Source: Halorussus rarus (GTDB lineage: Archaea; Halobacteriota; Halobacteria; Halobacteriales; Haladaptataceae). From it: a stretch of DNA of 64,000 nt. Shown here in pieces: positions 25,574 through 64,000 of the stretch. The position numbers were made by a program, and so were the translations under genes. The stretch is taken from NCBI RefSeq assembly GCF_003369835.1, contig NZ_QPMJ01000001.1:1111589-1175588 (forward strand). The letters are read 5' to 3'. The notes under the pieces were generated by a model. The model ran no database searches, was not told the DNA's origin, and saw only the letters and a list, made by a program, of their open reading frames with translations. The stretch's first letter is position 1; each line of letters begins with the position of its first letter.

Positions 25574-25574
25574 G

Positions 25575-33091: not shown

Positions 33092-33112
33092 GTCTTCTGA
33101 CCGTGAGTGAAT

Positions 33113-34189: not shown

Positions 34190-34547
34190 GATGGGTATTC
34201 CGACGGCTCTCGTCGGTTCGTCTCTCCAACGAAGGGTCGGTGGTGTTTTTGTTATTTGCCACTGTCTACGGGCAACGCGACCCGGTTCTTTCAGAAATAC
34301 AATCGTTAAGCCGTCCCTCACATGCTTCGACCCCGATTTTCGCTGGCGTTGTCGGTGGACGACCGACACGTCCTTAGCGGCTTCAGTCGGCGAACCTAGT
34401 TTCTGACGGCAGAGCCGATCGAAGCGTCGGATTTGTGTATATCCGGAACTGCATCGAGGGGGTGAGGTAATGATTCGTTGATAAAGTTAGGTTACCGTTT
34501 ACGCGTTCCGATAGATATTTAAGATGTCTTCAGAGCATTGAAGATGC
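34190..34547. other. Divergent intergenic region
   Basis: About 360 bases separating the leftward FemAB-like unit from the rightward beta-helix gene. It must hold both promoters. GATATTTAAGATG at 34513-34525 is a TATA-like element about 25-30 bases before the ATG at 34548. Confidence 0.45.
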
Positions 34548-36620: not shown

Positions 36621-36788
36621 AGTTCCGTGTCTCCGGCCCTCCGCCGTTCACCATATTTATATTCTCAGCCGACGTTTCAGATGTGACCGGGTGAGTTATC
36701 TATCACCAGGAACGTCTCATGTCTCCTCGTCGGTGACTTCTCGTCGAATCCGGAGAAGATCGTCCGACACGTCCATCCGCTGACCGAG

Positions 36789-39406: not shown

Positions 39407-39408
39407 AA

Positions 39409-42982: not shown

Positions 42983-42998
42983 GTTTCTCCTCGGCGCT

Positions 42999-43019
42999 CC
43001 CCTCGACTCATCCGAGGGG
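42999..43019 (-). promoter_or_regulatory. Hairpin in the leader of the UDP-ManNAc dehydrogenase gene
   Basis: CCCCTCG and CGAGGGG form a perfect 7-bp inverted repeat with a 7-base loop. It ends 17 bases before the start codon. A TATA-like AT-rich stretch lies beyond it near 43035-43055. It could be an operator or an RNA hairpin affecting translation. Confidence 0.4.
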
Positions 43020-43173
43020 ATACACGTTCGAGTGCCCCTATAATTGTTATTTACTCGTCACTGCATGGTAACGCGACCTGAACGTCTCCGGCAGTCGGTC
43101 GTCGACGTGCGCAAGCGGGGTAGGGGGCTCGTAACCTCGATTACAGACCGGTTTGGACGGTTTACTGTGACTG

Positions 43174-44700: not shown

Positions 44701-44801
44701 GTTTCCCGTCCTTCACCCTGCTCTCCCGTGCTTCGGCCTGCTCGCGCAGTTCGACGCGCAAGTACGTTCGGTGACACGATACGCTACGGTCGAGGGGCCC
44801 A

Positions 44802-45086
44802 TTACGTCGGCCCCCGAGCCAGTAGAGTGAGGGCCTCGCGGCCGATGAGATAGCTGGTGACGCCGAACCCGACGACCATGAGCGCCTGCATCCAGTCGTC
44901 GATGGGCGACTCACTGACGACCACCTCCAGCGCCTCCCACTCAAAGAGGAGGATGACGTACGTGACCACGAAGAACAGGTCCGGCTCAAAGGTATCGAAC
45001 GCGAATAGCAGCGCCAGCGCCGCCAGTATGAGCGACGTGTGGAAGCCGACGATGGCGCTGGAGACGGTTCGTCGTTTCACCGACAC
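44802..45086 (-). CDS. Small three-helix membrane protein
   Basis: A 94-residue protein from GTG 45084-45086. Three hydrophobic helices are clear: TSLILAALALLFAF, LFFVVTYVILLFEW and MQALMVVGFGVTSYLIG. No family is recognised. It overlaps the 3' end of the GT-C-like gene by 101 bases in another frame, which is unusual and may mean the upstream protein's end was extended by a lost stop codon. Its place between a GT-C-like protein and a flippase suggests a helper in the same membrane process, but this is inference. Confidence 0.6.
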   Translation of the reverse strand: MSVKRRTVSSAIVGFHTSLILAALALLFAFDTFEPDLFFVVTYVILLFEWEALEVVVSESPIDDWMQALMVVGFGVTSYLIGREALTLLARGPT

Positions 45087-47109: not shown

Positions 47110-47154
47110 AAATGATTTGGGTGTCAGACCGGCGGTCGCGACGACTGGTCCCGA

Positions 47155-48933: not shown

Positions 48934-49035
48934 ACTCCCTATACATTCTTTTGATAATAGAATATTTCGGTGAGATAGCGGGTAGTACGGTCGAACCGAC
49001 GATATTTTTATTACGATGGTCGGCGTCGATGCTCC
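48934..49035. promoter_or_regulatory. Bidirectional promoter region
   Basis: An AT-rich 100-base gap separates two divergent starts. GATATTTTTATTACG (about 49002-49016) is placed to serve the rightward GTG at 49036. CTATTATCAAAAG, read on the minus strand near 48950-48965, may serve the leftward gene. Confidence 0.5.
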
Positions 49036-50169
49036 GTGGATATCCGATACCTCGCACTCCATACGCCGGAGTCTGTCGGCTACGACTCCTGTGAGGAGTT
49101 CCTTGAGTTCGCGGAGTACCACCACGAGTACTGTCGGCTGATGGACGAGCGGGGACACGACGTGGAGTTCTGGCACCTCGGACGGTCCGAACGGAGCGTC
49201 CGACACGAGTATGGCCACCTCGTCAGGCAGTTTCCTGCGATCAACCCCGGAGAGTTCGGCAAAGAGCTCTCGCCGTCGCTGTACGTGGCCACGGTTCGGG
49301 CCTCGCCCGACGTGGTGCACGTCCACGGCTTCCACCAGTTGAACAACGTCCCGCTGTTGGTCTCCCAGTGGTTCACCGATAGCCTCGTGGTCCAGAATCA
49401 CGGGCCGTCGCGTGACGCTTCGGAGTTCGGGACCGCGCTCTGGTACCGCGGCCTCCGGGCGGCGTTCGCTGGAACCGACGCCACCGTCCTGTCGGTCAAC
49501 CGCAAGGAGGTCCGGAACGTCCGCCGCTTCAGCATCGGAAGCGACGTGGAGTACATCCCAAACGCTGTGGACACTGAGAAGTACCGTCCGCGCGATAAAT
49601 CGGAAGCCCGCGAGCGACTCGGCCTCGGCGACGGACGGTACGTTCTCTTCGTGGGCCGGATGGAGGAACCGAAAGGGGTATCGTACCTCGTCGATGCGAT
49701 GGCGGACGTGCCGGCCACGCTTCTGCTGGTTTACGGCGGCGGCGACGACGATCACGTCGCGGAGTTGCGCCGTCGCGCCACCGACTGGGGGACGAACGTG
49801 GAGTTTGTGGGTCGGGTCTCGGACGACGAACTGGTCGATTACTACAACGCCGCCGACGTTTGTGCGTTCCCGTCCCTCACGGAGGGTTTTGGCGTGGTCT
49901 GCCTAGAGGCGATGGCCTGCGAGACCCCGGTCGTAGGTACAACGGCTCACACGAGCGGCGAACAGGGCCACCTCGACCACGGTGAGACAGCGCTCGTCGC
50001 AGAACGGGCGGACGCTTCGAGTCTCCGCGACGAGATTCGTCGACTCCTTGACGACGACGAACTCCGGAACGCCATCGCCACCGCCGGTCGGGAGTCGGTG
50101 GTAGATGAGTTCAGCTGGCCCGCCATCGCCGACCAGCTCGAAGCCACGTATCGTCGGGGCGCGGTATGA
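49036..50169 (+). CDS. GT4-type glycosyltransferase
   Basis: A 377-residue protein from GTG 49036. The N-terminal half has GHDVEFWHLGRSERSVRHEY and PDVVHVHGFHQLNNVPLLVS. The C-terminal half has RYVLFVGRMEEPKGVSYLVD and VCAFPSLTEGFGVVCLEAMA, with an intact E-x7-E motif, then ETPVVGTTAHTSGEQGHL. It is GC-rich and acidic like the core genome. The next glycosyltransferase gene begins 154 bases downstream on the same strand, so both may be in one transcript. The sugar specificity is not readable. Confidence 0.88.
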   Translation: MDIRYLALHTPESVGYDSCEEFLEFAEYHHEYCRLMDERGHDVEFWHLGRSERSVRHEYGHLVRQFPAINPGEFGKELSPSLYVATVRASPDVVHVHGFHQLNNVPLLVSQWFTDSLVVQNHGPSRDASEFGTALWYRGLRAAFAGTDATVLSVNRKEVRNVRRFSIGSDVEYIPNAVDTEKYRPRDKSEARERLGLGDGRYVLFVGRMEEPKGVSYLVDAMADVPATLLLVYGGGDDDHVAELRRRATDWGTNVEFVGRVSDDELVDYYNAADVCAFPSLTEGFGVVCLEAMACETPVVGTTAHTSGEQGHLDHGETALVAERADASSLRDEIRRLLDDDELRNAIATAGRESVVDEFSWPAIADQLEATYRRGAV

Positions 50170-50323
50170 GGGTTTCCGAACCCATCGTCGGAACAGCAAA
50201 GCGAGACTGGGCGGCGAGAGGGCCAGAACGTTCAAAAGCGTCGGACCGGTCCCTGGCGGGAACAGTACCAAACGTGGGGCGTCGAACGGAAAACGAACGG
50301 GACGCGAACACAGGGGACTGAAC

Positions 50324-51397
50324 GTGAACGTCACACTCGTAACGCCGCACAGACACGGCGGTATGCTCCACTATACCTCGCAGTTAGCCAACGCTATGGC
50401 CGAACGAGCGGACGTGACCCAGTTCGTCGTATCGGGGGCCGACTCCAAGGTCTTCTCCGACCGCGTGGACCTGCGCGAACTCCCGTTGCCGGTCGAGGTC
50501 TCGGAACTCGGCCCATCTACCGTCTCGGGCCTCCGGACGGTGTACCGCCGGTTGAAGCGCGTCGAGAGCGACGTCGTCCACGTCACTTCCGGTCAGGAAC
50601 TGATACCGTTCGTCCTCCCGGCCGTCCGCGACCGGCCGTTCGTCTACACCTCCCACGATATCTACTATCACAGCGGCGAGTTCTCACTACGAGGGAGTGT
50701 GGTCCAGCAGTTGCTCGTCCGGTACGCCGACAGGGTCGTCGTCCACGGCGAGTACAACGTCGAGCAGTTCGCCCGGAAGTTCGGGAGTGCCGAAAAGGCC
50801 TTCGAGATAACGCACGGCGACTACGGGATGTTCGACTCCTACTGTGACGACCCGACGACCTACGAGCCCGAACTGCTGTTCTTCGGTCGGATAGCACCGT
50901 ACAAGGGACTGGACGTGCTTTTAGAGGCCGAGCGGTTACTCGCCGACCGGGTAGACGACTTCCGGATCGTCGTCGCCGGCGAGGGCGAACTCGACGAGTT
51001 CTGCCGCGAGCGCATCGCCGAGAGCGACCACGTCCGACTGCTCAACGAGTACGTCGCCGACGAGACGGTCTGCGAACTGTTCAGCAGGTGTCGCGCGGTC
51101 GTCCTCCCGTACCGTGACGCCTCCCAATCGGGCGTTCTTCCCATCGCCTACTCGTTCGAGAAACCGGTCGTCGCCACCGACGTCGGGACGAACCCCGAAC
51201 TCGTCGCCCACGAGGAGACGGGCCTGCTGGTCGACCCGGAGAACCCCCGCCAGTTGGCCGCGGCCTGTGAGCGACTCCTCACCGACCGGGAGTGGGCGCG
51301 AGAACTCGGTGCAGTGGCCCACCGGTTCGGGGAACGCGAGATGAGTTGGGACGACACCGCCGGACGACTGCTCGGAATGTACGACTCGCTCCGGTAG
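50324..51397 (+). CDS. GT4-type glycosyltransferase
   Basis: 357 residues from GTG 50324. The open frame reaches 50105, but the extra part is basic and overlaps the previous gene. The N-terminus NVTLVTPHRHGGMLHYTSQL has the acceptor-side glycine loop. DVVHVTSGQELIPFVLPAV follows. The donor half has ELLFFGRIAPYKGLDVLLEA and CRAVVLPYRDASQSGVLPIA, then EKPVVATDVGTNPELVAHEE. In the S-Q-S-G-V segment, glycine-rich loop and proline replace the first glutamate of E-x7-E, as in some GT4 subgroups. It closes the GC-rich part of the region. Confidence 0.85.
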   Translation: MNVTLVTPHRHGGMLHYTSQLANAMAERADVTQFVVSGADSKVFSDRVDLRELPLPVEVSELGPSTVSGLRTVYRRLKRVESDVVHVTSGQELIPFVLPAVRDRPFVYTSHDIYYHSGEFSLRGSVVQQLLVRYADRVVVHGEYNVEQFARKFGSAEKAFEITHGDYGMFDSYCDDPTTYEPELLFFGRIAPYKGLDVLLEAERLLADRVDDFRIVVAGEGELDEFCRERIAESDHVRLLNEYVADETVCELFSRCRAVVLPYRDASQSGVLPIAYSFEKPVVATDVGTNPELVAHEETGLLVDPENPRQLAAACERLLTDREWARELGAVAHRFGEREMSWDDTAGRLLGMYDSLR

Positions 51398-51753
51398 AGA
51401 CACCCGAAAGCGTGTCAACGTCCCATCACTCGCCACGCCCCTACCAAGCGAACCAGACGCACAGAAAAGACGATGTCTGGCCGACGGAACTGTTCAGGAT
51501 AGCTACTGTTCGTACGAGTCGACCCCGCACTCCAGAAGATTCACGAGTCGTTCGACGAGAACATGAGCAATTTCTGGTACGAACGTACAGTTCTTGTTTG
51601 AATTATTAATTTGGTACAATCGGGGTCGAATATGTGAAATCAGTGAAAAGAATGTATAGTTTACACGTTTGTACATGTCCCTTCGCACGTGGTTCACATA
51701 CTCCACTACGAACAGTAGGTCGGCGAACCGGCGTCGAACCGATTGTCGGCCGG
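51398..51753. other. Intergenic stretch
   Basis: No gene seen. Composition changes from GC-rich to mixed, with an AT-rich patch at about 51590-51670. Confidence 0.4.
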
Positions 51754-51948
51754 GTGTACGCTCAAGCCAAACACAAGTTCGGCCCTGATACCGTCACTAT
51801 TGACGTAGGTAGTTAAACAGTAGTGTTCCGGCCGGAATCGGGCTACGAACGCGGACTGATCGAAACCACGCTTTCCGAAGAAAACGTCCGGACCGAATTC
51901 GTATCTGAAATCAAGCCTAACGATGTCGTGTACGACCTCGGCGTGGCC
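51754..51948 (+). pseudogene. FkbM methyltransferase remnant
   Basis: The plus-strand frame reads VYAQAKHKFGPDTVTIDVGS, a TAA at 51814-51816, then TVVFRPESGYERGLIETTLS and EFVSEIKPNDVVYDLGVA. The last part is the entry to the SAM-binding fold of FkbM methyltransferases (compare GDVLYDVGANIG in the intact gene at 23536-24312). After it the match is lost. It is therefore a 5' fragment with a nonsense codon and a missing catalytic half. Confidence 0.6.
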
Positions 51949-52397
51949 CGTATTCGCAGTATAGACTTCCTGATAGGTTGGATCATCCGTGTCCACCGGC
52001 GTAGCCGGACGTGACAGATTCAATTCCGTCAAGTTCCTTGAACGCCGCTTCCTCGCACCAGAAACACCGTCGCCAAACGGTGCTTTGGCGGATTCGGTTA
52101 CCACCTGTTCGTTAGCTTCCGGGGTCTATGTATGTGACGTACAGTAAATCACGGGCGGCTGACGGTCTCGGATCTCGACCCTGTTTTTATCGGACAGATG
52201 CAGAAGAAGAGGACGAGAACGGAGTGTCCAGAAGACGTTGGGGCGGCACAGGAAGTTGCCTCACGCGGCTATCCGTGTTGGACGTCGTGCTATCGCCGAC
52301 CGCGCCCACACGATTACCTTTCATCATATCCCGATTCCGTAGCAGGGAGTCCACCATACGAAGATTGATACAGTAGTGTGTTCTCCATGTAACTCCG
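51949..52397. other. Intergenic stretch after the FkbM remnant
   Basis: About 450 bases with only short frames of no recognisable kind. A minus-strand frame (51706-52104) is mostly antisense to the remnant. Confidence 0.4.
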
Positions 52398-53426
52398 ATG
52401 GGACTTGATATCGAACTCATTCGCGAAACCGAAAGAGACGAGTGGGACTCGTGCGTGGTGAAGTCTCCACAGACGACCTTCTTCCACAGATACGATGCTC
52501 TACAATCGGTTGCCGACTACTTCGACGCGGCGCTTTATCCGCTAATCGGCTATCGAGGTCAAGAACCCGTCGGAATCCTTCCGCTATTCGAACTCGGAAA
52601 GGGTCCGTTCACGATTATCGCATCGCCACCCCCGCACCTCGAAGTGAACATTGGGCCTGCATTGCTGAACTACGACAAGGTAAAACAGCGAAAGAAGGAG
52701 AAACGCCACCGCGAATTCGTTGATGGATGTCTGGACTTCATCGAAGGTAACTTCGATACGAATTACGTAGACCTAAAGACAGCGACCCGTTATAACGACG
52801 TTCGACAGTTCATTCGACGAGGGTACGACGTGGGTGTCTCCTACACGTATGTTCTAGATCTAACGCCATCCGAAGAGGAACTGCTCGGCCGGTTCAGTCG
52901 GGACGCCCGGAGCAATATTACGAACGTCAACGCCGACGAGTACGTCACCGAACGAGGGAGTGCTGAAGAGATACCAGCTATCGTCAATCTCGTACAGCGT
53001 CGTTTCGACGAGCAAGACTTGTACTACTGGCTCAATTCGGAGTTGGCGGTCGACCTCTATACCACGTCGTCCTCCGAGTACGTCCGACCGTACGTCTGTC
53101 GTGTCGACGGCAAGATAGTCGGCGGAATCCTTGCGCTGGAACACGGCGATACCATGTACCGTTGGCAGAGCGGTTCACGATTGGACGTCGACATTCCAGT
53201 TACTGAACTTCTCGACTGGCACGTCATCCAGGACGCTCGTGAGCGCGACCTGAAATGCTACGACCTCGTCGGCGCGATGGAGCAGAGTCTCTGTGATTAC
53301 AAGTCCAAGTTTGCCCCGGACCCGGTGCCAGTGTACACGATGGAACGAAAAGGAATCGTAGCCTCGGTGGCAGAACAGGCGTACAGCCGTATGTCGAACA
53401 TGTTTCGGGATATCGTAGGTCTCTGA
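52398..53426 (+). CDS. FemAB/BioF2-like GNAT-fold transferase, second copy
   Basis: A 342-residue protein. ETERDEWDSCVVKSPQTTFF near the start parallels the N-terminal block of the protein at 33113 (NQWNHVVEQSDLGCLFHRYG). RPYVCRVDGKIVGGILALEH, MYRWQSGSRLDVDIPVTELL and CYDLVGAMEQSLCDYKSKFA form the C-terminal GNAT half. Proteins of this type move acyl or aminoacyl groups, perhaps onto a glycan. Four bases after its stop comes the GTG of a small gene, then a GT2 gene and UDP-GlcNAc 2-epimerase, all rightward and tightly packed, so this is the first gene of a four-gene unit. Confidence 0.75.
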   Translation: MGLDIELIRETERDEWDSCVVKSPQTTFFHRYDALQSVADYFDAALYPLIGYRGQEPVGILPLFELGKGPFTIIASPPPHLEVNIGPALLNYDKVKQRKKEKRHREFVDGCLDFIEGNFDTNYVDLKTATRYNDVRQFIRRGYDVGVSYTYVLDLTPSEEELLGRFSRDARSNITNVNADEYVTERGSAEEIPAIVNLVQRRFDEQDLYYWLNSELAVDLYTTSSSEYVRPYVCRVDGKIVGGILALEHGDTMYRWQSGSRLDVDIPVTELLDWHVIQDARERDLKCYDLVGAMEQSLCDYKSKFAPDPVPVYTMERKGIVASVAEQAYSRMSNMFRDIVGL

Positions 53427-53430
53427 CAAC

Positions 53431-53718
53431 GTGAACCGCCTTGGGGTTGAGTCCCAAGGCACTCAGCCTGCTCCGCCTGCAGAAAAAATGGTGTCAGAAA
53501 CGGGGGATGGAACGAATACAACGGTAAGTTACGATTCGTTAGGTCTTGTCGGTGAAAACGGTACTCAGTACGTTATCTTTGGTCATAGAAAATATCCCCT
53601 TGAACAATTAGCGGGGTATTTTGAATACGGTGTCCCTGTATTCAGAGCAGTGCTGGGCGGAAGCCGGAACGGACACCGTACAACGCAGTTTCTACGGAAG
53701 GAGTGGTTGTATGAGTAA
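53431..53718 (+). CDS. Small protein of unknown function in glycan operon
   Basis: 95 residues from GTG 53431, or 76 from ATG 53488. A disordered N-terminus is followed by a compact part: VSYDSLGLVGENGTQYVIFG, KYPLEQLAGYFEYGVPVFRA and TTQFLRKEWLYE. I do not recognise the family. Its stop overlaps the start of the GT2 gene by eight bases, so expression is coupled. It could be a regulatory subunit or a remnant of an upstream domain of the GT2 enzyme. Confidence 0.55.
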   Translation: MNRLGVESQGTQPAPPAEKMVSETGDGTNTTVSYDSLGLVGENGTQYVIFGHRKYPLEQLAGYFEYGVPVFRAVLGGSRNGHRTTQFLRKEWLYE

Positions 53719-54682
53719 AACGATAGACACCGCAAAGACACTCGACGGCCCCATTCGAGAGAGTTCCACGAAATCCGTCTCTCACGTTGTAGTCGGGATT
53801 CCCGCCTACAACGAAGAACACGCTATTGCAAGTACAGTCCTCGGAGCGAAGAAATACGTCGATCGAGTCATCGTTGTCGATGATGGAAGTACCGATAAAA
53901 CTGCCGAACGAGCACGGCAAGCAGGCGCAACGGTCATCCAACACGAAACGAACAAAGGCAAGGGATCTGCGATTAAAACCCTCTTCACGTACATCGACAG
54001 TTTGGAGTGGGACGTCCTCGTCGTTTTAGACGGGGATGGGCAACATCTTCCAAGTGACATCCCGACCGTCACAGAACCGATCCTCAAGAACGACGCGGAT
54101 ATCAGTATCGGAAGTCGGTATCTGGAACAGGATCCGGAGAACGAAACACCGCGCTATCGACGGTTCGGCCAGCGTGTCTTAGATCTGTTAACGACCGGCT
54201 CCACTGGCGTTAAACTCACCGATACCCAGAGCGGATTCCGTGCCTTCTCTCCCGCTACAGTCAAGAACCTCCCGCTGAGATCGAATGGAATCTGCGTCGA
54301 GAGCGAGATGATCGACGCTGCGGTCCAACAGGGTTTAAGGATAAAGGAGACGCCCATCGACATCAGATACGACGGAGTCGAGGGACAAACGTATAATCCA
54401 CTTCGCCACGGCCTTTCTGTAGTCGCTTTCTTTCTTCGTCTCGTCCGGGACAGACATCCGCTACTCTTTTTCGGCGTTCCGGGAGCGCTGCTGACGCTTG
54501 CTGGAACGATGTATGGTATCGACGCGATCCTCGTCTACCAGCAAACGGGCGAATTCTATCCCGCGAAGGTTCTCGTCAGTGGTTTCGTCACGATAATTGG
54601 CATCCTCGGTGTTTTCTGTGGGCTAATTCTGAATCAGATTTCGGCCATCATCGCTGAATTGACTGAGGTGATCGAGGAATGA
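53711..54682 (+). CDS. GT2 polyprenyl-phosphate sugar synthase-like protein
   Basis: 323 residues from ATG 53711. The GT-A domain has HVVVGIPAYNEEHAIASTVL, RVIVVDDGSTDKTAERAR, and WDVLVVLDGDGQHLPSDIPT with the D-x-D metal site. TDTQSGFRAFSPATVKNLPL follows. Two C-terminal membrane helices (LLFFGVPGALLTLAG, VSGFVTIIGILGVFCGLI) resemble DPM1-like enzymes such as AglJ-type synthases that load a sugar on the lipid carrier. Its stop overlaps the 2-epimerase start as ATGA. Together with that gene it may start glycan assembly in this region. Confidence 0.85.
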   Translation: MSKTIDTAKTLDGPIRESSTKSVSHVVVGIPAYNEEHAIASTVLGAKKYVDRVIVVDDGSTDKTAERARQAGATVIQHETNKGKGSAIKTLFTYIDSLEWDVLVVLDGDGQHLPSDIPTVTEPILKNDADISIGSRYLEQDPENETPRYRRFGQRVLDLLTTGSTGVKLTDTQSGFRAFSPATVKNLPLRSNGICVESEMIDAAVQQGLRIKETPIDIRYDGVEGQTYNPLRHGLSVVAFFLRLVRDRHPLLFFGVPGALLTLAGTMYGIDAILVYQQTGEFYPAKVLVSGFVTIIGILGVFCGLILNQISAIIAELTEVIEE

Positions 54683-55803
54683 CCCAACAGGTCGCTATCG
54701 TCCTCGGCACTCGCCCCGAAATTATCAAACTCTCTCCCGTTATCCGTGAGTGTGACCGCCGAGACGTTGAGTACACGCTTATTCATACCGGGCAACACTA
54801 TTCCGACTCGCTAGACGGCGTATTTTTCGAGCAGTTAGAACTCCCGACCCCAGAGTACAACTTAGCTATCGGTTCCCAGCCACATGGCCAGCAGACGGGA
54901 AAGATGATCGCCGAGATTGAGAAGATTCTGTTGGAGATAGACCCCGATACAGTTCTCGTCCAAGGTGATACGAATTCGGTGTTGGCTGGTACGATCGCGA
55001 CAGATAAGTTGGACATGGAATTAGGTCACGTTGAGGCCGGTTTGCGGAGTTTCAACCGGTCGATGCCCGAGGAGTCGAACCGGAGGGCAACCGACCATTT
55101 AGCGGATTACTTGTTCGCGCCGACAGACGATGCACACGACCTCCTCCGTCAAGAGGGGATTTCAAACGAGCGAATCTTCGTGACGGGGAACACTGTCGTT
55201 GACGCTGTTACCCAGAACAAGGGGTTAGCGCACGAGAAAAGCGACGTGCTCGCCGATTTTAATCTCACTAACCAAGAGTACGGTTTGATGACGGCCCACC
55301 GAGCAGAGAATGTCGATGATCGAACGTGTTTTCAAAGCTTACTCGACGGTGTACAGCGAGTTGCGACAGAGTTCGGAATCGAGGTAATCTACCCTGTTCA
55401 TCCTCGTGCGAGAACCAAAGCGAACAAGTTCGGTTTGCGCATCCCACCGCGAATACGCTTGACGGAACCCAAAGACTATCTCGATTTTCTTGAGTTGGAA
55501 AGCAACGCCGAGATCATCCTAACCGACTCCGGGGGTATCCAAGAGGAGGCCTGCATCCTCGGGGTACCCTGCGTGACGATGCGCGACCACACGGAACGAC
55601 CAGAGACTATCGCCGTCGGTGCAAACACGTTGGTCGGAACTGACCCATCCGATATCGTTGCCGGGGCAAAACAGATGTACGGTGCGTCTGATAACTGGGA
55701 GAGTCCGTTCGGTGATGGTACCGCAGGAACGCAAATTCTGGATATATTAGAATCTGTGACTCCGCCTCAAGACATGACCTCGATTCGGGAGGTTTCGAAG
55801 TAA
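54679..55803 (+). CDS. wecB: UDP-N-acetylglucosamine 2-epimerase (non-hydrolysing)
   Basis: A 374-residue protein that converts UDP-GlcNAc to UDP-ManNAc. All family landmarks are present: IVLGTRPEIIKLSPVI at the start, HTGQHYSDSLDGVFF, LVQGDTNSVLAG, GHVEAGLRSFNRSMPEESNR with the catalytic Asp/Glu neighbourhood, LMTAHRAENVDD, and LTDSGGIQEEACILGVPC near the UDP site. Length is typical. Its product is the substrate of the dehydrogenase encoded at 41720-42982. It is the last gene of the FemAB-small-GT2-epimerase unit, and its start is coupled to the GT2 stop. Confidence 0.93.
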   Translation: MTQQVAIVLGTRPEIIKLSPVIRECDRRDVEYTLIHTGQHYSDSLDGVFFEQLELPTPEYNLAIGSQPHGQQTGKMIAEIEKILLEIDPDTVLVQGDTNSVLAGTIATDKLDMELGHVEAGLRSFNRSMPEESNRRATDHLADYLFAPTDDAHDLLRQEGISNERIFVTGNTVVDAVTQNKGLAHEKSDVLADFNLTNQEYGLMTAHRAENVDDRTCFQSLLDGVQRVATEFGIEVIYPVHPRARTKANKFGLRIPPRIRLTEPKDYLDFLELESNAEIILTDSGGIQEEACILGVPCVTMRDHTERPETIAVGANTLVGTDPSDIVAGAKQMYGASDNWESPFGDGTAGTQILDILESVTPPQDMTSIREVSK

Positions 55804-56071
55804 GTACAGTTGTATCTCTAGGTCGGACTGTGTCGGCTTACCGATAGCTGCGATGTTTGCGAACCACACGGTTCTATCGAACCCACCAACGGCATCGGTG
55901 TACGTCGTCTCGATCACTCGCCCGACTTCCGCGAAGATAACGGATATCCTATAGGACCCGCGGGGTCGCCCTTGCTACATTATCTGCGAAAATCGACTGA
56001 TTGCGCTACGGCCGCCAAAGTTGTCTCAATGCAAATAAATGACCTACTTTGAAGAAGAGATTGGTTCTCAG
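55804..56071. other. Intergenic stretch
   Basis: About 270 bases with no gene or motif that I can recognise. Confidence 0.4.
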
Positions 56072-56166
56072 GTTAATTCCCGATGTTCGTCTTTAAGATA
56101 GCCACTTTCGGTGGTGCGCTGTGAAGAATCGTTGTTATCTGGAATAGGAGGTAGCGAAATACGGCC
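56072..56166. repeat. Imperfect direct repeat, copy A
   Basis: The segment containing GATGTTCGTCTTTAAGATAG, then AAGAATCG..GTTATC.GGAATAGGA, matches 57941-58034 in the same orientation with scattered differences. The two copies bracket the broken ATPase genes. Confidence 0.65.
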
Positions 56167-56204
56167 GAATGACCGGTTCGCGTATTGACCCCATGACCGC
56201 AGAT

Positions 56205-56415
56205 TCTTGCTGTCGTAGATCAACCACGCAGTGATGGCGGTCTCGGGGTCGTACGTCGTGAAGAACTAACGTGCATCAGTTACTGAGAGGGGCTTGAGAT
56301 CAGCGTCGCCGTCCGGCGACCGTAAACCGGTCCGCTTCCGGAGAGTACCTTGTCCTCCATGACGTTAATCGAGGAGCCGACGAGAACGAGCGTCATCCTG
56401 GTCTCTTGAAACTCT
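56205..56415 (-). pseudogene. Fragment of a DUF234-type ATPase gene
   Basis: About 200 bases match the intact ATPase gene at about 30190-30405 closely at nucleotide level (for example GAGAGTACCTTGTCCTCCAT and GAGGAGCCGACGAGAACGAG). The part corresponds to the sensor region around LVLVGSS and the following linker. It has stops and indels. Both ends of the gene are missing. It abuts the end of the neighbouring broken ATPase gene, so two different copies were joined here by recombination or deletion. Confidence 0.75.
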
Positions 56416-57834
56416 ATGGTCCAATCTCGCGCTCACTGCTTCGACGATATCAGCGACCGTAAATATGCGTAGATCGTCTCGTTCTGCCGCTGATTCTTCG
56501 ACGGATGATTTGAATCCGCTGCGTGAGAAGAGCGCGTACTGCTCAATACGCTCACTGCCGTCGTCGGACGCCCAGCGGAGTTCGTCAGCGTGACTCCGGA
56601 GTTTCGAAAAGGCGTCAGCTCCGAGTGGGGACTCTTGGAATTTGTATTCACCGAGGATGAGGGTGTCGCTTGTTGCGAGACCAACGACGTCGATTTCGTG
56701 TTTCCCGTACCACCACTGCCCGGTTTCTCGAACCGTGTAGTCCGAATAGAGTGCTCGGAGTGCCGAACAACATAACTCCTCGAAGTATCGGCTTACGAAA
56801 TCCACCAGTTCCGGTTCGACGAGCACGCTGTACGCGTTGTCACCGAGTTCGTCGTACTGATCTCCCGTCCCGTAGACGAAGTGGAACTAGAACCGAAAGA
56901 ACGAGTCCCGGATGCGGTAGCGGCTTCGTTTGCTTCGCTCTTTTTGGTCGGTGATAGGGACGTGTTGGTCAACGAGGCGAAGGCGGGAGAGTCGGTTGAG
57001 ATACTTCGAGAGTTGATTGTAGTCGATTCCCGTCGCTCCCGCAATCTCGTTCCGACTGGTGTGTCCACCGACAATGGCCTCCAAGATGGAGAAGTACCGT
57101 GTCGGTTCTCTGAGTGACATGCGGAGGACGTAGTGGGGTTCGTGGTGGAGTATGCCATGCCGGGAGAGGATGGTTTGCTGGATGTATTCCGCGAGCGTGG
57201 TGTTGGGCGAGACTTCTTCCAAGTAGTACGCGACAACGCCGAACACGCCCCAGGTGAGCACTTGCTCGTCCGGAGTATACGGCTCGTCGAAGAACTCCAT
57301 CGCGGCAACAAACGGGAGCTGCCGGATGTCGACTTTGAGTGAGACACAACCGTATAAAGGACTGTTCCCCAGTAACGCGGCCTCTTCCATCATGATGATT
57401 GACGACCCAACAAGTACGAACGTCGCGGCTGAGTCGTCCAGTTCGTGGTCGAACATCGCCTACAACACGGACAGGAGACACTCGTCCTGTTCGACGAGGT
57501 AGGGGAACTTATCGAGAACAACGACTGCGTCTTGATCGGCGAGATATCCAAGGACGGCCTCCCAGTCCTCTAGGATCCGCGTGATACCCGGATTGGAGTC
57601 CGCCGCGGTCTCGATGAACTGTTGGAGTTGAAGTGCACTCGTTTTCTGCTTCGCCTGATAGACAACGCAGTCGTCGCGCTGTTTGAGCGAGTGTTTGACG
57701 AGCGCGGTTTTCCCGAGCCGTCGTCGCCCGAAAATCACCGCGAGCTCGGCATCACCGGACTCGTAGAGCTCGTGGAGACAGAGAGTTCCTCCGTCCGATT
57801 CACGAACGCAGTCATGATTGACGTACTTCACCAC
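56410..57834 (-). pseudogene. DUF234-type ATPase gene broken by two in-frame TAG codons
   Basis: One continuous frame encodes a diverged relative of the ATPase at 29395. The P-loop FGRRRLGKTALVK and VVVLDKFPYLVEQDE (Lys replaces the Glu of Walker B) are in the first part. A TAG at 57460-57462 interrupts LLSVL-stop-AMFDHELDD, then comes FVLVGSSIIMMEE. A second TAG at 56887-56889 interrupts FFRF-stop-FHFVYG. The last part has QWWYGKHEIDVVGL and GEYKFQESPLG. Each TAG fits a single change, CAG to TAG and TGG to TAG. No frameshift is seen. After about 56425 the frame runs into the neighbouring fragment. The parts could still be made as separate peptides, but a working protein is unlikely. Confidence 0.75.
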
Positions 57835-57858
57835 TCTAGATGATATTTGCTATTACCG

Positions 57859-57885
57859 TACTCCAGAGTATGATACTCCAGAGTA
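57859..57885 (-). promoter_or_regulatory. Tandem inverted repeats upstream of the broken ATPase gene
   Basis: Two copies of TACTC-CA-GAGTA (57859-57870 and 57874-57885) are separated by three bases and lie 25-51 bases before the ATPase start. Position parallels the inverted repeats before the intact ATPase gene, though the sequence differs. Operator function is inferred. Confidence 0.5.
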
Positions 57886-57940
57886 CGGAAATTGCGATTT
57901 CCTATTTGAAGCGGCTAGAGAGGCCAGGGGTTTACCTCAG

Positions 57941-58034
57941 GTAAATCTCGATGTTCGTCTTTAGGATAGCTACTTTCGGAGATTCCTTATAAAGAATCGC
58001 GGTTATCCGGAATAGGATGTATCGAAATAATGGC
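57941..58034. repeat. Imperfect direct repeat, copy B
   Basis: Partner of 56072-56166, located upstream of the broken ATPase promoter. Confidence 0.65.
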
Positions 58035-58271
58035 TGACCCCCCGGCTCACATATAAAGTATCGAGAAATCCGCGACCCCAGGTCCTTGCCGCTCTTTGAC
58101 CCACGTTGGGCATGGACCTGGGTGAATTCCACTGAACTTCCATTGTCTTTCCGGCAATTCCACCGTGTTATATAAAGCCAGGACCCGTTAGAGACGCCTA
58201 CACGGACGAAAACAGGCGACGCGGGATAAGGGATCGAGGGCTAGCCATCAAGTATTTATAAGAGGCTTGAG

Positions 58272-58316
58272 GCGCCCTCTCACGGCAAGGACTAGGGTTC
58301 AAATCCCTAACGGAGC
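58272..58316 (+). other. 3' tRNA-Glu-like remnant, possible attachment site
   Basis: The sequence has the anticodon loop CTCTCAC (anticodon CTC, Glu), a perfect T arm (TAGGG TTCAAAT CCCTA) and a 3' acceptor strand ACGGAGC plus A, very like haloarchaeal tRNA-Glu. The anticodon stem has mismatches, and no 5' acceptor strand (GCTCCGT) or normal D arm lies upstream. It is therefore not a working tRNA gene. Integrases often use the 3' half of tRNA genes, so this may be an att remnant at the island edge. Core genes begin 110 bases later. Confidence 0.6.
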
Positions 58317-58429
58317 ACTTCTGTCCGGACCCCGAAACCAATATATCTATCTGACATTTTTCGTAGTTCGCTCTCGCGCTCGTCCAGTCATTTCCTCTTG
58401 AAGAAGCTGACATAGCATGCAGCCTCCGA

Positions 58430-59776
58430 TTACTCCAACTTCCCACCGAGGACCTTCGCGGCCGTCAGAACCGGATCCCAGGTCGGGCTGAACGGCGGCG
58501 CGTACGCCAGGTCCAGTTCCTCGAGTTCGGTCGCCGTCAGTCCGGCGTGGAGCGCAGTCGCGACCGTGTCGATGCGCTTGGCCCCCTCTCGGCCGACTAC
58601 ACTGCCCCCGATAACTCGATTAGTCTCGCGGTCGGCCAGCAGCGTCACCGTGAGGTCCTCGGCGTCGGGGTAGTACTCCGCTCGAGTGGAGTCCGTAATC
58701 GTCACCGAGACGGGGTCGAATCCGGCCTCGCGCGCCGCCTCCTCGCGGACGATGCCCGTCCGGGCGGCGCCGAGGTCGAACGCCTTCACGATGGCCGTGC
58801 CCGCGATCTCGCCGACTCGCGTCGGCGTCCCGGTGACGGTCTGGCCGATGGCCCGGCCCGCCCGATTCGCCGTCAGCGCCAGCGGAACGTGGTCCGGGGT
58901 GCCCGTGACGACGTCGGTCGACTCGGCGCAGTCGCCGGCGACGTAGACGCGCTCGACGTTCGTCAGGCCGAACTCGTCGGTCGCGACGGCGCCGGTCGGC
59001 CCGAGTTCGATGCCGGCGTCCTCGGCCAGTTCGACGTTCGGTTCGACGCCAACGCCGACGATAGCCAGATCGACCTGCACCGACTCGTCGTCGAACGCGA
59101 CGCCCTCCACGGCGTCCTCGCCGGCGAACCCCGAGACGGGCGTGTCGAGGTGGAGCTCCACCCCCTGTTCGCGGAGATGGTCCTCGACCGCCACGGCGAC
59201 GGGATCGCCGAACGGTCGGAGGACGTGGGGGAGCATCTCGAAGAGGTGGACCGTCGCGCCGCGTTCGGTCAGCGCCTCGGCCATCTCGACGCCGACGTAC
59301 CCGCCGCCGACGACGGCCGCCGTCTCGGGCGCGTTCTCGGTGACGTACTGCTCGATGGCCTCGGCCTCGTCCATGTCGTGGATTGTGAACACCCCGTCGA
59401 GGTCCACCCCGTCGAACGGGGGTTCGATCGCCCGGGCACCGGTGGCAACGAGCAGGTCGTCGTAGGGTTGCTCGAACCGTTCGCCGTCGGCGGACACCGT
59501 GACCGTCCGCGCCTCCGGACTGATTCCGACCACCTCGTGGCCGGTCCGGAGGTCGATGTCCCGCTCCTCCCGGACCTGCTCGGGCGTCAGCGTGACCAGG
59601 TCGTCCAGTTCCGGGACGTCTCCCTTGACGTAGTACGGCATCCCGCAGGCAGCGTAGGAGACCCACTGCCCCCGCTCGAAGACGATCACGTCCCGGTCGG
59701 GATCCTCGCGCTTGGCCTTGCTCGCGGCGCTCAACCCGGCTGCGTCGCCGCCGATCACGACGAAGGTCTCACCCAT
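58430..59776 (-). CDS. CoA-disulfide reductase / NADH oxidase-type flavoprotein
   Basis: 448 residues from ATG 59774-59776; the upstream extension is not coding. The FAD fold starts FVVIGGDAAGLSAASKAKRE. Cys44 in WVSYAACGMPYYVKGD is the single redox cysteine of CoA-disulfide reductases and NADH oxidases. The NAD(P)H fold is AAVVGGGYVGVEMAEALTER, and YVAGDCAESTDVVTG binds FAD. A dimerisation domain ends the protein. It probably reduces CoA or other low-molecular disulfides with NAD(P)H in the cytoplasm; exact substrate is uncertain. High GC and normal codon use mark the start of core chromosome. It diverges from the PurD-like gene. Confidence 0.85.
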   Translation of the reverse strand: MGETFVVIGGDAAGLSAASKAKREDPDRDVIVFERGQWVSYAACGMPYYVKGDVPELDDLVTLTPEQVREERDIDLRTGHEVVGISPEARTVTVSADGERFEQPYDDLLVATGARAIEPPFDGVDLDGVFTIHDMDEAEAIEQYVTENAPETAAVVGGGYVGVEMAEALTERGATVHLFEMLPHVLRPFGDPVAVAVEDHLREQGVELHLDTPVSGFAGEDAVEGVAFDDESVQVDLAIVGVGVEPNVELAEDAGIELGPTGAVATDEFGLTNVERVYVAGDCAESTDVVTGTPDHVPLALTANRAGRAIGQTVTGTPTRVGEIAGTAIVKAFDLGAARTGIVREEAAREAGFDPVSVTITDSTRAEYYPDAEDLTVTLLADRETNRVIGGSVVGREGAKRIDTVATALHAGLTATELEELDLAYAPPFSPTWDPVLTAAKVLGGKLE

Positions 59777-59928
59777 GAGTGAAGATACGCGGGCGTCGCT
59801 ATAAAGAATTTCGAGGGTCAAACAATACTGATGACGGGACCGCCATCCGACTGAGAGAGCGACGCTACGGACCACTCGGTGACGCGCTCGTCGCGGTTCT
59901 TTTGAGGGTGGCGCTCGTCGGAAGGGCC

Positions 59929-61269
59929 ATGGATTCCAAGCGCTTCCTCTTCGTCTCGGCGGACGCCGCGCTCATCGGCGACCTCGCGTGGCAGATCCAC
60001 GGCGAGGGCCACGACGTGAAGTACTACATCGAGGCCGAGAGCGACCGGGAGATCGCCGACGGGTTCGTGCCCAAGACCGACGACTGGGAGGCCGAACTCG
60101 GGTGGGCCGACGTCGTCATCTTCGACGACATCTGGCGCGGTTCGGAGCTCGGAACCGGCGAACTCGCAGCGGAGCTCCGGGACGAGGGCAAAGCCGTCGT
60201 CGGCGGGACGCCGAACACCGACCGACTGGAGGACGACCGGGGGTACGCGATGGACGTCCTCGAGGAGCACGGCATCGACACCGTCGACCACCACGAGTTC
60301 TCGGACTTCTCGGCGGGCATCCGCCACGTCGAGGAGAATCCCGGCCCGTACGTCGTCAAGCCGCTCGGCGAGGTCCAGAACGTCAAGCGACTCCTGTACG
60401 TCGGGACCGAGGACGACGGCAGCGACGTGGTCGAGGTGCTCCGGGCCTACGAGAAGGCGTGGGGCCACCGGATGAAGGGGTTCCAGCTCCAGCGGAAGGT
60501 CGAGGGCGTCGAGATCGCGGTCTGCGGCCTCTTCGACGGCTCCCGGTTCGTCGAGCCGGTCAACTTCAACTTCGAGCACAAGAAGCTGTTCCCCGGCAAC
60601 ATCGGGCCGTCGACCGGGGAGATGGGGACCTCGATGTTCTGGAGCCGCCGAAACGAGCTGTTCGAGCGGACCCTCGGGAAGCTGGAGGGCTGGCTCGCCG
60701 ACGAGGGGTACGTCGGGAGCATCGACCTCAACTGCATCGTCAACGCGACCGGAATCTACCCGCTGGAGTTCACGCCCCGATTCGGCTATCCGACCATCGC
60801 GCTCCAGGCGGAGGCGATGGAGTCGCCGACCGGCGAGTTCTTCCACGACCTCGCCCACGGCCGCGACCCCGACCTCCGGGTCCACCGTGGGTACCAGGTC
60901 TGCGTCCGCGTCGTGCTGCCGCCGTTCCCGTTCGACGACGAGAAGACCTACGACGAGAACTCCCGGAACGCCGCCATCGTCTTTGAGAACGGCGACAGGG
61001 AGGGCGTCCACATCGAGGACGCGAAGAACGTCGACGGCCAGTGGCGCGCCGCCGGCGAGTCCGGGATGCCCCTGGTCGTGACCGGGAAGGGCGAGACCAT
61101 GCAGGAGGCTCAGGCCGAGTGCTACGAGCGCGTCGACAACGTCATCATCCCGAACCTCTACTACCGCGACGACGTCGGCGACCGCTGGGTGGAGGGCGAC
61201 GGCGACAGGCTCCACGCGTGGGGGTACCTGGGTCCGCGGGACTCGGTCGGTCCGCGGAGCGCGGACTGA
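59929..61269 (+). CDS. PurD-like ATP-grasp protein
   Basis: 446 residues from ATG 59929. It begins RFLFVSADAALIGDLAWQIH, continues as ADVVIFDDIWRGSELGTGEL and YVVKPLGEVQNVKRLLYVGT (ATP-binding lysine strand), and has GSIDLNCIVNATGIYPLEFT then PRFGYPTIALQAEAM, the ATP-grasp metal site and glycine-rich end of glycinamide ribonucleotide synthetases. Compared with typical PurD, the conserved N-terminal substrate motifs are changed. It may be a second ligase with another acceptor and not the purine enzyme. The gene is not in a purine cluster here. Confidence 0.7.
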   Translation: MDSKRFLFVSADAALIGDLAWQIHGEGHDVKYYIEAESDREIADGFVPKTDDWEAELGWADVVIFDDIWRGSELGTGELAAELRDEGKAVVGGTPNTDRLEDDRGYAMDVLEEHGIDTVDHHEFSDFSAGIRHVEENPGPYVVKPLGEVQNVKRLLYVGTEDDGSDVVEVLRAYEKAWGHRMKGFQLQRKVEGVEIAVCGLFDGSRFVEPVNFNFEHKKLFPGNIGPSTGEMGTSMFWSRRNELFERTLGKLEGWLADEGYVGSIDLNCIVNATGIYPLEFTPRFGYPTIALQAEAMESPTGEFFHDLAHGRDPDLRVHRGYQVCVRVVLPPFPFDDEKTYDENSRNAAIVFENGDREGVHIEDAKNVDGQWRAAGESGMPLVVTGKGETMQEAQAECYERVDNVIIPNLYYRDDVGDRWVEGDGDRLHAWGYLGPRDSVGPRSAD

Positions 61270-61282
61270 AGCCGGGAAGCGT

Positions 61283-61816
61283 CTACCGAACGCTCGGATA
61301 CCGGCGGACGCCGAGATAGGCCCGCTGTGGCGCGTACTCGCCGTCGCGGAGGAGTCGGAGGGCGGTCGCGGTCGCGTAGTGGTTGCCGTCGGCGACGTAC
61401 GGCGCGGCGGTGCCCCGCCGGAAGCAGACGATTCGCTCGGACTCGGGCGTCCTGCCGGCGAGTCGGCGGACGTGGTCCACGTCGATATCTTCGAATCGCC
61501 CGCGGAGGTCGGCCCCGCGGATGCGCCGGGCCGCGCCGAGGATGGTGCCGTCGGGCGAGAGTTCTCGCCACGACTCGTCGCGCGGTCCCTCGATGACCTC
61601 GAGCCGCCGGAACGCGGTCTCGTCGAGTTCGGTCCGGTACCACGTCACCGGGTGGCGCCAGACGAACGCGGCCTGGAACGGGCGGTGGGCGAACAGCGCG
61701 CCGACGAGTTGCCAGTCGGCCTCGTCGCCCGAGAGCGAAATCTCGGCCTCCCCCTTCCGCCGTTCGCGGTCGAGCCAGCTCCGGACCACTTCCAACTGCG
61801 AGACGCGTTCTCTCAT
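61283..61816 (-). CDS. Conserved haloarchaeal protein with ParB-like DGNH motif
   Basis: 177 residues from ATG 61814-61816. Near the end, APYVADGNHYATATALRLLR resembles the D-G-x-H-R-x-x-A strand-turn-helix of ParB/sulfiredoxin-like domains, with tyrosine in place of arginine. The N-terminal half (SQLEVVRSWLDRERRKGEAE) is helical and charged. No other motif is clear. Function is unknown. It converges with the PurD-like gene, 13 bases apart. Confidence 0.6.
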   Translation of the reverse strand: MRERVSQLEVVRSWLDRERRKGEAEISLSGDEADWQLVGALFAHRPFQAAFVWRHPVTWYRTELDETAFRRLEVIEGPRDESWRELSPDGTILGAARRIRGADLRGRFEDIDVDHVRRLAGRTPESERIVCFRRGTAAPYVADGNHYATATALRLLRDGEYAPQRAYLGVRRYPSVR

Positions 61817-61936
61817 GAGTACCAGACGACCGATTCTTCGTCCGCCCCGGCTAAAAGGTTGCAAACACCCGAGCAGGGACCAGAGGGGGACCGAGGAACG
61901 TCAGCAGTCCATCGCTTGCCGCGCCCGAGACGAATC

Positions 61937-62899
61937 CTACTGGTGGAGCCCCATCGCCTCGATCTGCTCCTGATAGCGGTTCCGGATGGTGACCTCGGTG
62001 ACCTGGGCGGCGTCGGCGACCTCGCGCTGGGTCTTCTTCTCGTTGCAGAGCAGCGACGCCGCGTAGATCGCCGCGGCCGCGTAGCCCGTTGGGGACTTGC
62101 CCGACAGCAACCCCTGCTCGACGGTGACGTCGATGATCTCGTTGGTCTTGGCCTCGACCTCCTCGGACAGGCCGATCTCCGAGCAGAACCGCGGGACGTA
62201 CTGCTTGGGGTCGACGGGACGCATCTCCAGGCCGAGCTCCTGGGAGAGGTACCGGTAGGTCCGGCCGATCTCCTTGCGTTCGACCCGGGACACCTCCGCG
62301 ACCTCCGCGAGCGAGCGGGGGATGCCCTCCTTCCGACAGGCCGCGTAGAGCGCGGCGGTCGACGTCCCCTCGATGGAGCGCCCGCGGATCATGTCCTCCT
62401 TCAAGGCCCGGCGGTAGATGACGCACGCGACCTCGCGGACCGACCGCGGAACGCCCATCCCGGAGGCCATCCTGTCGATCTCGCCCAGCGCGAACTGGAG
62501 GTTGCGCTCGCCCGCGTCCTTGGTCCGGAGTCGCTGCTGCCACTTGCGCAGGCGATGCATCTGGTTGCGCTTCTCCGAGGAGAGCGAGTTGCCGTAGGCG
62601 TCCTTGTTCTTCCAGTCGATGGTGGTCGTCAGCCCCTTGTCGTGCATCGTCTGGGTGGTCGGGGCCCCGACGCGGGACTTGCTCTCGCGCTCCTGAGTGT
62701 TGAACGCCCGCCACTCGGGCCCGCGGTCGATGGTCTCCTCCTCCAGGATGACGCCGCAGTCCTCGCAGGTGAGCTCCGTCTCGTCGGCGCTCTTGACGAG
62801 TCCGGCGGAGTCGCACTCCGGGCACCGCCGCCGCCCTCCGGTTTCCTCGCTCTCCTCCTCGCGTTCGTCGCGCTCGTCTTGCCGACGGAGCCTCTCCAT
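61937..62899 (-). CDS. tfb: Transcription initiation factor IIB (TFB)
   Basis: A 320-residue TFB. The N-terminal zinc ribbon has CPEC and CEDC. The B-reader region RGPEWRAFNTQERESKSRVG and TIDWKNKDAYGNSLSS follows. Two cyclin-like repeats (SVREVACVIYRRALKEDMIR and SIEGTSTAALYAACRKEGIP; second repeat ending SPTGYAAAAIYAASLL) complete it. It binds the TBP-TATA complex and recruits RNA polymerase. Haloarchaea encode several TFBs; which one this is cannot be told. Length and motifs are complete. Confidence 0.95.
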   Translation of the reverse strand: MERLRRQDERDEREEESEETGGRRRCPECDSAGLVKSADETELTCEDCGVILEEETIDRGPEWRAFNTQERESKSRVGAPTTQTMHDKGLTTTIDWKNKDAYGNSLSSEKRNQMHRLRKWQQRLRTKDAGERNLQFALGEIDRMASGMGVPRSVREVACVIYRRALKEDMIRGRSIEGTSTAALYAACRKEGIPRSLAEVAEVSRVERKEIGRTYRYLSQELGLEMRPVDPKQYVPRFCSEIGLSEEVEAKTNEIIDVTVEQGLLSGKSPTGYAAAAIYAASLLCNEKKTQREVADAAQVTEVTIRNRYQEQIEAMGLHQ

Positions 62900-63050
62900 A
62901 CCACGGAGTTCGGTGCGTGCACGGGTAACAGTTGTGCAGGCGCGGACGTTCGTACACCGGAAGGCAAGTTTCCCGGTTGCCGTCCGAGTCCGACCTGTCC
63001 CATCGCCACCCGGACAAGATTAATCACGGGAGACCGTGGTATTGGGCCCC

Positions 63051-63815
63051 ATGCCAGATCGATTGGCTTCGAAAGTCGCCGTGGTCGTCGGCGCGTCCTC
63101 GGGCATCGGCCGCGGCGTCGCCACCCGGTTCGCCGACGCGGGCGCGACCGTCGCGGTCGGCGGCCTCCACCGGTCGCCGGAGGGCGGCGGTACCGCGACG
63201 CACGAAGCGATCTCTGAGCGCGGCGGCGACGCCGTCTTCGTCGAGTGCGACCTCACCGACCAGCGGTCCGTCGACAACGCCGTGGAAGCGACCGTCTCGG
63301 AGTTCGGCCGCGTCGACGTCGCGGTCAACTGCGCGGGGGCGATGACCCGCGGCCCGGTCACCGAGACCGCGGAGGAGGACATCCGGCAGGTCCTCGACGT
63401 GAACCTGACCGGCGCGATCCGCTTCGCGAAGGGGGTCCTGCCCGAACTGGTCGAGACCGACGGGACGCTGATCACCGTCTCCTCGGAGGCGGCCGAGCGC
63501 GGCATCGAGAGCCTGCCGGTGTACTGCGCGAGCAAGGGCGGCGTGAACGCGCTCACCCGGCAGCTCGCGGTCGAGTACGGCCCGCAGGGGGTCAACGTGA
63601 ACGCCATCGCGCCCGGCACGACGAAGACCGCCATCAACGAGGAGGTCCGCCGGGAGGACCCCGACTGGGTCGACGAGCGCGTCGCCGACATCCCCGTCGG
63701 CATGCTGAACGAACCGGAGGACGTCGCGGAGCTCGGCGTCTACCTCGCCTCGGACGCCGCGAAGAAGGTCAACGGGGAGATCGTGAACATCGACGGCGGG
63801 ACGACCGCGAAGTAG
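63051..63815 (+). CDS. Short-chain dehydrogenase/reductase
   Basis: 254 residues from ATG 63051 (a GTG at 63036 is possible). The cofactor site is VAVVVGASSGIGRGVATRFA. NCAG in VDVAVNCAGAMTRG, the catalytic Ser in LITVSSEAAERG, and Y-x3-K in LPVYCASKGGVNALTR are all present. NAIAPGTTKTAINEEVRRED is the substrate-loop start. Ketoacyl reductases and glucose 1-dehydrogenase-like enzymes share this pattern, so the substrate is open. It is next to the start of a probable malate/lactate dehydrogenase-family gene on the same strand. Confidence 0.9.
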   Translation: MPDRLASKVAVVVGASSGIGRGVATRFADAGATVAVGGLHRSPEGGGTATHEAISERGGDAVFVECDLTDQRSVDNAVEATVSEFGRVDVAVNCAGAMTRGPVTETAEEDIRQVLDVNLTGAIRFAKGVLPELVETDGTLITVSSEAAERGIESLPVYCASKGGVNALTRQLAVEYGPQGVNVNAIAPGTTKTAINEEVRREDPDWVDERVADIPVGMLNEPEDVAELGVYLASDAAKKVNGEIVNIDGGTTAK

Positions 63816-63915
63816 CCGGCAGGAGACCGGGAGGACCGACGCAGACGGTCCGAACCGTGACGAGGAGGGCCGACCGTCACGAACGCATATGGTGGTTCCG
63901 GCCGAGAGGGGTACC

Positions 63916-64000
63916 ATGGGTGGGGACGACAGCGGTTCGACAGTTCGCATCGACGACGGCGACCTCCGGCGGTTCGTCGGTCAGGTGCTCCGCGAGAGCG
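63916..64000 (+). CDS. Probable malate/L-lactate dehydrogenase-family protein, 3' truncated by window edge
   Basis: Only the first 28 residues are visible from ATG 63916. STVRIDDGDLRRFVGQVLRE matches the first strand and helix of Ldh-family (YlbC/YbiC-type) malate/L-lactate dehydrogenases, where V-x-x-x-x-L-x-x-F-V-x-x-V-L is usual. The call is tentative because the rest is missing. Confidence 0.5.
   Translation, partial: MGGDDSGSTVRIDDGDLRRFVGQVLRES

Follow-up and report, generated by a model that had tools for sequence, protein, structure and literature searches.

A truncated tRNA-Glu gene in Halorussus as the probable attR of a 134.6-kb integrative element with defence and glycan genes

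The stretch of Halorussus DNA analysed here (the window; 64 kb, G000 C1:1111589-1175588) contains part of a tRNA-Glu(CTC) gene at a break in base composition, and this raises the question of how half a tRNA gene came to lie there and what the DNA to its left represents. An earlier note, made from the sequence alone, had described an anticodon loop, T arm and 3' acceptor strand without the 5' half at 58272-58316. Such a piece is indeed present; it is 48 nt long, 45 of them identical to the 3' part of an intact gene, and its limits are now refined to 58274-58321. It comprises the end of the 5' anticodon stem, the anticodon loop (CTCTCAC), the T arm, the 3' strand of the acceptor stem and a few trailer bases, while the 5' half of the tRNA is missing. 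The next-best 48-nt match to this core within the window reaches 27/48 identities, and 100 mononucleotide shuffles gave at most 29/48. No complete tRNA was detected in the window by ARAGORN, and a search of Rfam over 57900-58500 (E ≤ 1) returned no match, as expected for half a molecule. Two of the three mismatches lie opposite each other at the base of the T stem, where a C-G pair has become T-A, as would be expected of an allele that once worked as a tRNA, and the T-A allele also occurs in the intact tRNA-Glu(CTC) genes of two other genomes (G007 and G008). A scan of 57900-58500 with bacterial-type promoter and terminator models, which are of little use in archaea, found neither. An 82-aa ORF runs antisense through the fragment (58198-58446, minus strand) and is probably a chance ORF.

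The earlier note had proposed looking for a complete tRNA-Glu(CTC) and an integrase gene beyond the left edge of the window, and aligning the common 3' ends to define the att core. Both genes were found, 76.3 kb beyond that edge, and the alignment yields a core of 48 nt. The complete tRNA gene (G000 C1:1035219-1035294) lies on the same contig and strand, 134.6 kb to the left of the fragment, and directly behind it is an uninterrupted ORF for a 391-aa tyrosine integrase with a Phage_integrase domain and a SAM-like N-terminal domain (29.2 bits, cut-off 27). A second integrase gene follows on the opposite strand. The 3' part of the tRNA is a direct repeat at both ends, the left copy completing the intact gene, and the DNA between the copies has a GC content of 55.4%, with 68.8% in the left flank and 69.3% in the right flank. 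When the flanks were joined in silico, ARAGORN detected a rebuilt, intact tRNA-Glu in all five elements tested. Very probably, the fragment is the attR of a 134.6-kb integrative element that entered by site-specific recombination in tRNA-Glu(CTC), a mobile unit with its integrase at the left end and a cargo of defence and glycan genes. The suggestion that part of the first 58 kb of the window arrived by tRNA-targeted integration is supported, and most of the window (58 of 64 kb) is explained at once as the right part of one element (Table 1). For a large archaeal integrative element, the two ends can now be given exactly. No relative of the integrase with a solved structure was retrieved at E ≤ 1e-5. 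Searches for a free form of the element returned only more distant integrases from plasmid records (6 records, best 64%), integrase matches of at most 50% from phage records (49 records) and one locus among viral contigs (51%).

Table 1. Features of the 64-kb window, with positions counted from its first nucleotide
Feature	Position	Strand	Basis
Right 58.3 kb of the probable 134.6-kb element	1..58321		Pairing of attR with the left-end tRNA and integrase
AbiEii-type nucleotidyltransferase	405..1205	+	Pfam
Low-GC cluster, putative glycan/surface-polysaccharide genes	8599..25573		GC 47–49% steps; glycosyltransferase-like and flippase-like ORFs by sequence reading
Intact ATPase_2/DUF234 gene	29395..30768	-	96% identical to the gene beside the right arm in G014/G010
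Second glycan block	32147..55803		Pfam scan for 7 proteins; others by ORF reading
Partial second right-arm copy	56068..56164	+	80–82% identity
Broken DUF234 copy	56365..57834	-	Three ORFs: 56365-56826, 56887-57456, 57460-57834
Right arm adjoining attR	57930..58273	+	96% over 341 bp in G010 and G014; 72% in Halobellus rarus
Proposed arm-type integrase site, GGCANNNACCT type, reverse	58077..58090	-	Motif chosen after inspection; putative function
Proposed arm-type integrase site, GGCANNNACCT type	58109..58122	+	Motif chosen after inspection; putative function
Probable attR, 48-nt att core	58274..58321	+	45/48 identical to G000 C1:1035250-1035297 inside the intact tRNA gene
Right flank: FAD oxidoreductase, ATP-grasp protein, TFB, SDR	58430..64000		High GC; not conserved here in relatives

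The right arm adjoining the fragment was found at its full length of 341 bp in only three of the 293 genomes of the order, namely G000 and two further Halorussus genomes, G010 and G014, with one more genome giving a weaker partial match. According to the earlier note, related genomes with the same fragment at this place and no variable region beside it would speak against integration; the two other full-length carriers both have an element of 107–139 kb there. A short motif, GGCANNNACCT, is present in G000 as three direct copies in the left arm and an inverted pair in the right arm, and these account for five of the eight copies in the whole element, all five within the 570 bp of the arms. Because the motif was picked post hoc, is absent from G295, and has lost both copies from the right arm of G010, a role as arm-type integrase site is offered as a proposal.

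In the proposed mechanism, strand exchange would occur within or beside the 7-nt anticodon loop, the element's own tRNA 3' half would complete the gene on the left, and the original 3' half of the host gene would be displaced to the right end, to give the truncated tRNA seen today. The integrase would bind arm-type repeats at the two ends. With an intact reading frame it could also excise the element, which would travel from species to species as one piece, with defence systems and surface-glycan genes as its cargo. For archaeal integrases, att sites in the anticodon loop and the rebuilding of the tRNA gene are established in the available text of PMC8371274. In the right ends examined here, identity with the intact gene begins at CTCTCAC or no more than three bases before it. 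G010 and G014 agree in the T arm and trailer behind the intact tRNA, whereas their right-hand fragments differ and run into briefly alignable host sequence, which supports a crossover upstream of the T arm; its exact point in tRNA-Glu is one that we infer.

The elements of G010 and G014 (the latter genome a 100% match to a Halorussus limi record) have the layout seen in G000, with 138,974 and 106,704 bp between the tRNA copies. Their left flanks are about 85% identical, and from the tRNA on the two genomes align over 39.6 kb with two mismatches. A 32.3-kb stretch present in G010 alone comes next, followed by a second common block of 67.2 kb with 152 differing columns. A single patch of about 2.5 kb holds 121 of these, and another 28 are found in the rightmost 1.7 kb. 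Outside these two patches there are five differences in both blocks combined. To the right of the fragment, some 60 recognisable bp align before the sequences diverge. A near-identical element between flanks of such lower identity indicates that one element has recently integrated at this tRNA in both species; vertical inheritance is rejected on the same contrast. This suggests that such islands may move whole between species, and the pair can be regarded as a natural experiment (a 139/107-kb element, ~85% flanks, five differing positions outside the patches in the common part) in the recent transfer of a whole unit. The right-end patch, where the two species differ in their tRNA 3' ends as well, could have come from recombination with an end already resident there, or could be DNA of the host side. 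The 2.5-kb patch (G014 C1, 79209-81686 of the reversed 2950001-3090000; 121 of 154 differences) lies beside an Eco57I-type methylase gene and looks like a gene-conversion or replacement tract.

The cargo is rich in defence genes, as seen from a Pfam scan that took in 49 of the 75 called proteins of the G000 element. To the left of the window are genes for an Eco57I-type methylase, UvrD/PD-(D/E)XK proteins, a full-length pAgo, an AAA_5 (McrB-like) protein, an OLD-like nuclease, Mrr and an SMC-like/metallophosphatase pair, along with a BREX set in one cluster (BrxA, BrxB, BrxC, PglX, PglZ and BrxL), where PglX was named from Eco57I/N6-methylase matches and its position. The AbiEi partner of the nucleotidyltransferase in Table 1 spans the left edge of the window (C1:1111163-1111996), and a marginal match to a DDE transposase was obtained at window 2178-3959. 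The second glycan block codes for a polysaccharide deacetylase, a FemAB-like protein, glycosyltransferases, a UDP-sugar dehydrogenase and a flippase, among others. The elements of G010 and G014 carry genes for HerA, NurA and helicases, and the stretch specific to G010 adds the DISARM proteins DrmE, DrmA, DrmB and DrmMII, all four with full-length matches to the PADLOC profiles of those names. By their coordinates, the BREX set of G000 and the DISARM set of G010 sit between the same common backbone blocks. Also to the left of the window is a block of five genes (L007; G000 C1:1098453-1103414) specifying proteins of 321, 286, 310, 221 and 355 aa; the first three have no Pfam match, the fourth is exonuclease-like and the fifth is an HNH protein. 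It is common to all three Halorussus elements (66–93% protein identity) despite the differing cargo around it, and is possibly part of the element backbone or an undescribed defence system. Relatives of housekeeping genes are also carried by the G010 and G014 elements (L051, L054 and neighbours), which include genes related to those for Cdc48, an FttA-type nuclease and Na+/H+ antiporters, as well as a tRNA-Met(CAT) gene.

To the right of the fragment, the earlier note had placed a change from accessory DNA to core genes. The composition break is real (55.4 to 69.3% GC), but the genes that follow it are not core genes: 18.8 kb of lineage-specific DNA precede the conserved right neighbour of this locus in the genus, a ComEC-like/QueD/QueE/QueC block (genes named by ORF reading). 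This que block, which corresponds to a start at about 1188.8 kb of G000 C1, begins 1.3 kb from the tRNA in G003 and could be placed in 14 neighbourhoods of the genus (G001, G007 and G012 were left out of the comparison), being collinear in 13 and inverted in one (G006). Across these 14 neighbourhoods, the intervening DNA recurs only as the oxidoreductase gene (G006) and as 415 bp (G013); when 9 kb of the 19-kb stretch were compared with ten genomes of the genus, only two short, scattered pieces matched. The DNA to the right looks like ordinary chromosome by its GC content and gene families, yet it is lineage-specific. In G006 (C1:366347-383136), the inverted que block has the tRNA-Glu fragments on one side and, on the other, an oxidoreductase gene resembling the one at window 58430-59875.

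Relatives of the integrase were found at 47 loci of the genome collection, nearly all in Halobacteria. At 31 of these the gene follows a complete tRNA-Glu on the same strand (29 CTC, 2 TTC); the remaining 16 have no complete tRNA-Glu directly upstream, six having another tRNA (one reversed) and ten no complete tRNA, a set that includes contig ends and two cases with only a tRNA 3' half. In these last two, Halomicroarcula sp. SYNS111 (L122) and Halorubrum vacuolatum (L148), both at about 1.75–1.8 kb, only the 3' half precedes the integrase, and each may be an element stacked behind the attR of another, or a displaced copy. Halovenus salina has two integrases of the family (L150 and L159), each behind tRNA-Gly(GCC), and so the family appears to have switched its target tRNA. 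Weaker relatives of the right arm precede a tRNA fragment in four of 15 further genomes tested: Halobellus rarus (72%), Halomicrobium katesii, Halorubrum alkaliphilum and Salinibaculum KK48. With just 5,081 bp, the element in Halobellus consists of the integrase, a small ORF, an ATPase_2/DUF234 gene, an HhH-GPD repair-like gene and a further small ORF. This 5.1-kb form shares its ends, integrase and DUF234 gene with the 107–139 kb elements, whose ends the latter two genes mark, and distances from tRNA to fragment, taken from match positions alone, are about 46 (G304), 73 (G306), 76 (G302), 92 (G295) and 143 kb (G307). Both element ends recur in other genera around cargo of widely differing size, down to 5.1 kb. 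At the tRNA-Glu(CTC) locus, intact integrases of the family are present in G000, G010, G014, G006 and G008, and in G007 and G013 decayed ones occur at it or close by; the locus is a multilayered hotspot. Immediately to the right of the G014 attR (G014 C1:2965396-2965659) lies a decayed integrase piece (55%, one stop), apparently what is left of an earlier element stacked at this tRNA.

Such stacking at tRNA-Glu bears on another way of reading the G000 element, in which at least two elements of the family entered the same tRNA in turn and the inner att site was later lost, so that attL and attR come from different elements. The left element would have ended behind the intact DUF234 gene (29.4–30.8 kb), and the 27-kb glycan block would have come with the right one, as would the broken DUF234 copy. 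A right end of 2 kb that is contiguous in G014 is split in G000 by 27 kb (window 30.87-57.93 kb), and the broken DUF234 gene and partial arm at 56.07-57.83 kb are further traces that such a history could have left, but no third tRNA-Glu fragment occurs within the 134.6 kb, and a plain insertion of 27 kb beside the right arm accounts for the split equally well. As a history of the G000 element this is unlikely on balance, and for the right 27 kb the fusion of two related elements is a serious alternative that leaves the attR reading unaffected.

That the element encodes its own means of transfer, as a provirus or a conjugative element would, is improbable. Most haloarchaeal tailed proviruses are located in tRNA genes, according to the available text of PMC8651126, and the integrase has about 50% identity, across 93% of its length, with the integrases of halovirus HSTV-2 and relatives, but none of the 49 element proteins (of 75) scanned with Pfam belongs to a capsid, terminase or tail family. 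AAA_10 (VirB4 type) gave no match in G000 or G010 and a single weak one in G014, outside the element, and no Cdc6_C match was found inside any of the three elements. An old tRNA duplication or a pseudogene, unrelated to mobile DNA, is hardly a credible origin for the fragment: truncated tRNA copies can come from duplication, and the fragment by itself is only 48 nt, but its left neighbour of 341 bp is 96% conserved in two other elements, ends at the fragment, and has as its counterpart a left end with an integrase, located at the intact copy of this tRNA gene.

Returning to the single integrative element, a broader idea can be put forward tentatively, with the odds somewhat against it. These elements may be an archaeal family of mobile defence platforms, built on a small unit of integrase and DUF234 genes whose recombination ends are fixed. 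Such a unit would take up and swap defence and surface-glycan genes by the tens of kb (BREX in one element, DISARM in another); it would pass from species to species in pieces of more than 100 kb, have neither mating nor virion genes, and replace the 3' half of the host tRNA-Glu at each insertion. To our knowledge, the route by which such large islands travel in haloarchaea is not settled. With defined ends, an integrase and a target, excision, transfer and the protective value of interchangeable BREX and DISARM cargo become testable in these organisms.

By its gene content and ends, the element would be a classical tRNA-targeted integrative element of archaea, its notable aspects being its size, its defence load and the direct evidence of interspecies transfer. 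An SSV-type (suicidal) element is ruled out, since the integrase gene is whole and uninterrupted at the left end. Under the threshold for HSTV2-like integrases quoted in PMC8371274 (at least 30% identity over at least 60% of the protein), the match to HSTV-2 given above places the integrase in that family by identity and coverage alone, and we would regard the element as a new, large member of the known classical group. The available text of PMC8371274 lists only Phage_integrase for this family, whereas the integrase described here adds the SAM-like N-terminal domain, and no virion gene was seen among the element proteins scanned. Judged by titles and the beginnings of abstracts, the literature search found no report of this element family, nothing joining Halorussus with a genomic island and an integrase, and nothing on Halorussus limi or Halorussus gelatinilyticus. 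In bacteria, the defence hotspots of P2/P4 phages and the Pseudomonas islands likewise have, in the descriptions available, fixed ends and exchangeable defence cargo; here the host and integrase are archaeal, and neither helper virus nor mating genes were identified. Elements of the pNOB8 type, such as PYG1 of Pyrococcus yayanosii, are similarly described as having a whole integrase by attL, a restored tRNA and a 3' fragment at attR, but PYG1 is 21.4 kb long compared with 134.6 kb, the cargo here is defence-rich, and the integrase families differ. The islands of Halorubrum ezzemoulense (PMC11078007) are likewise reported in the available text as low in GC, with integrases near tRNA genes and some restriction-modification genes; for the Halorussus elements, by comparison, the att ends are known exactly and the arms are conserved, the defence load is much larger, and two species hold a near-identical pair.
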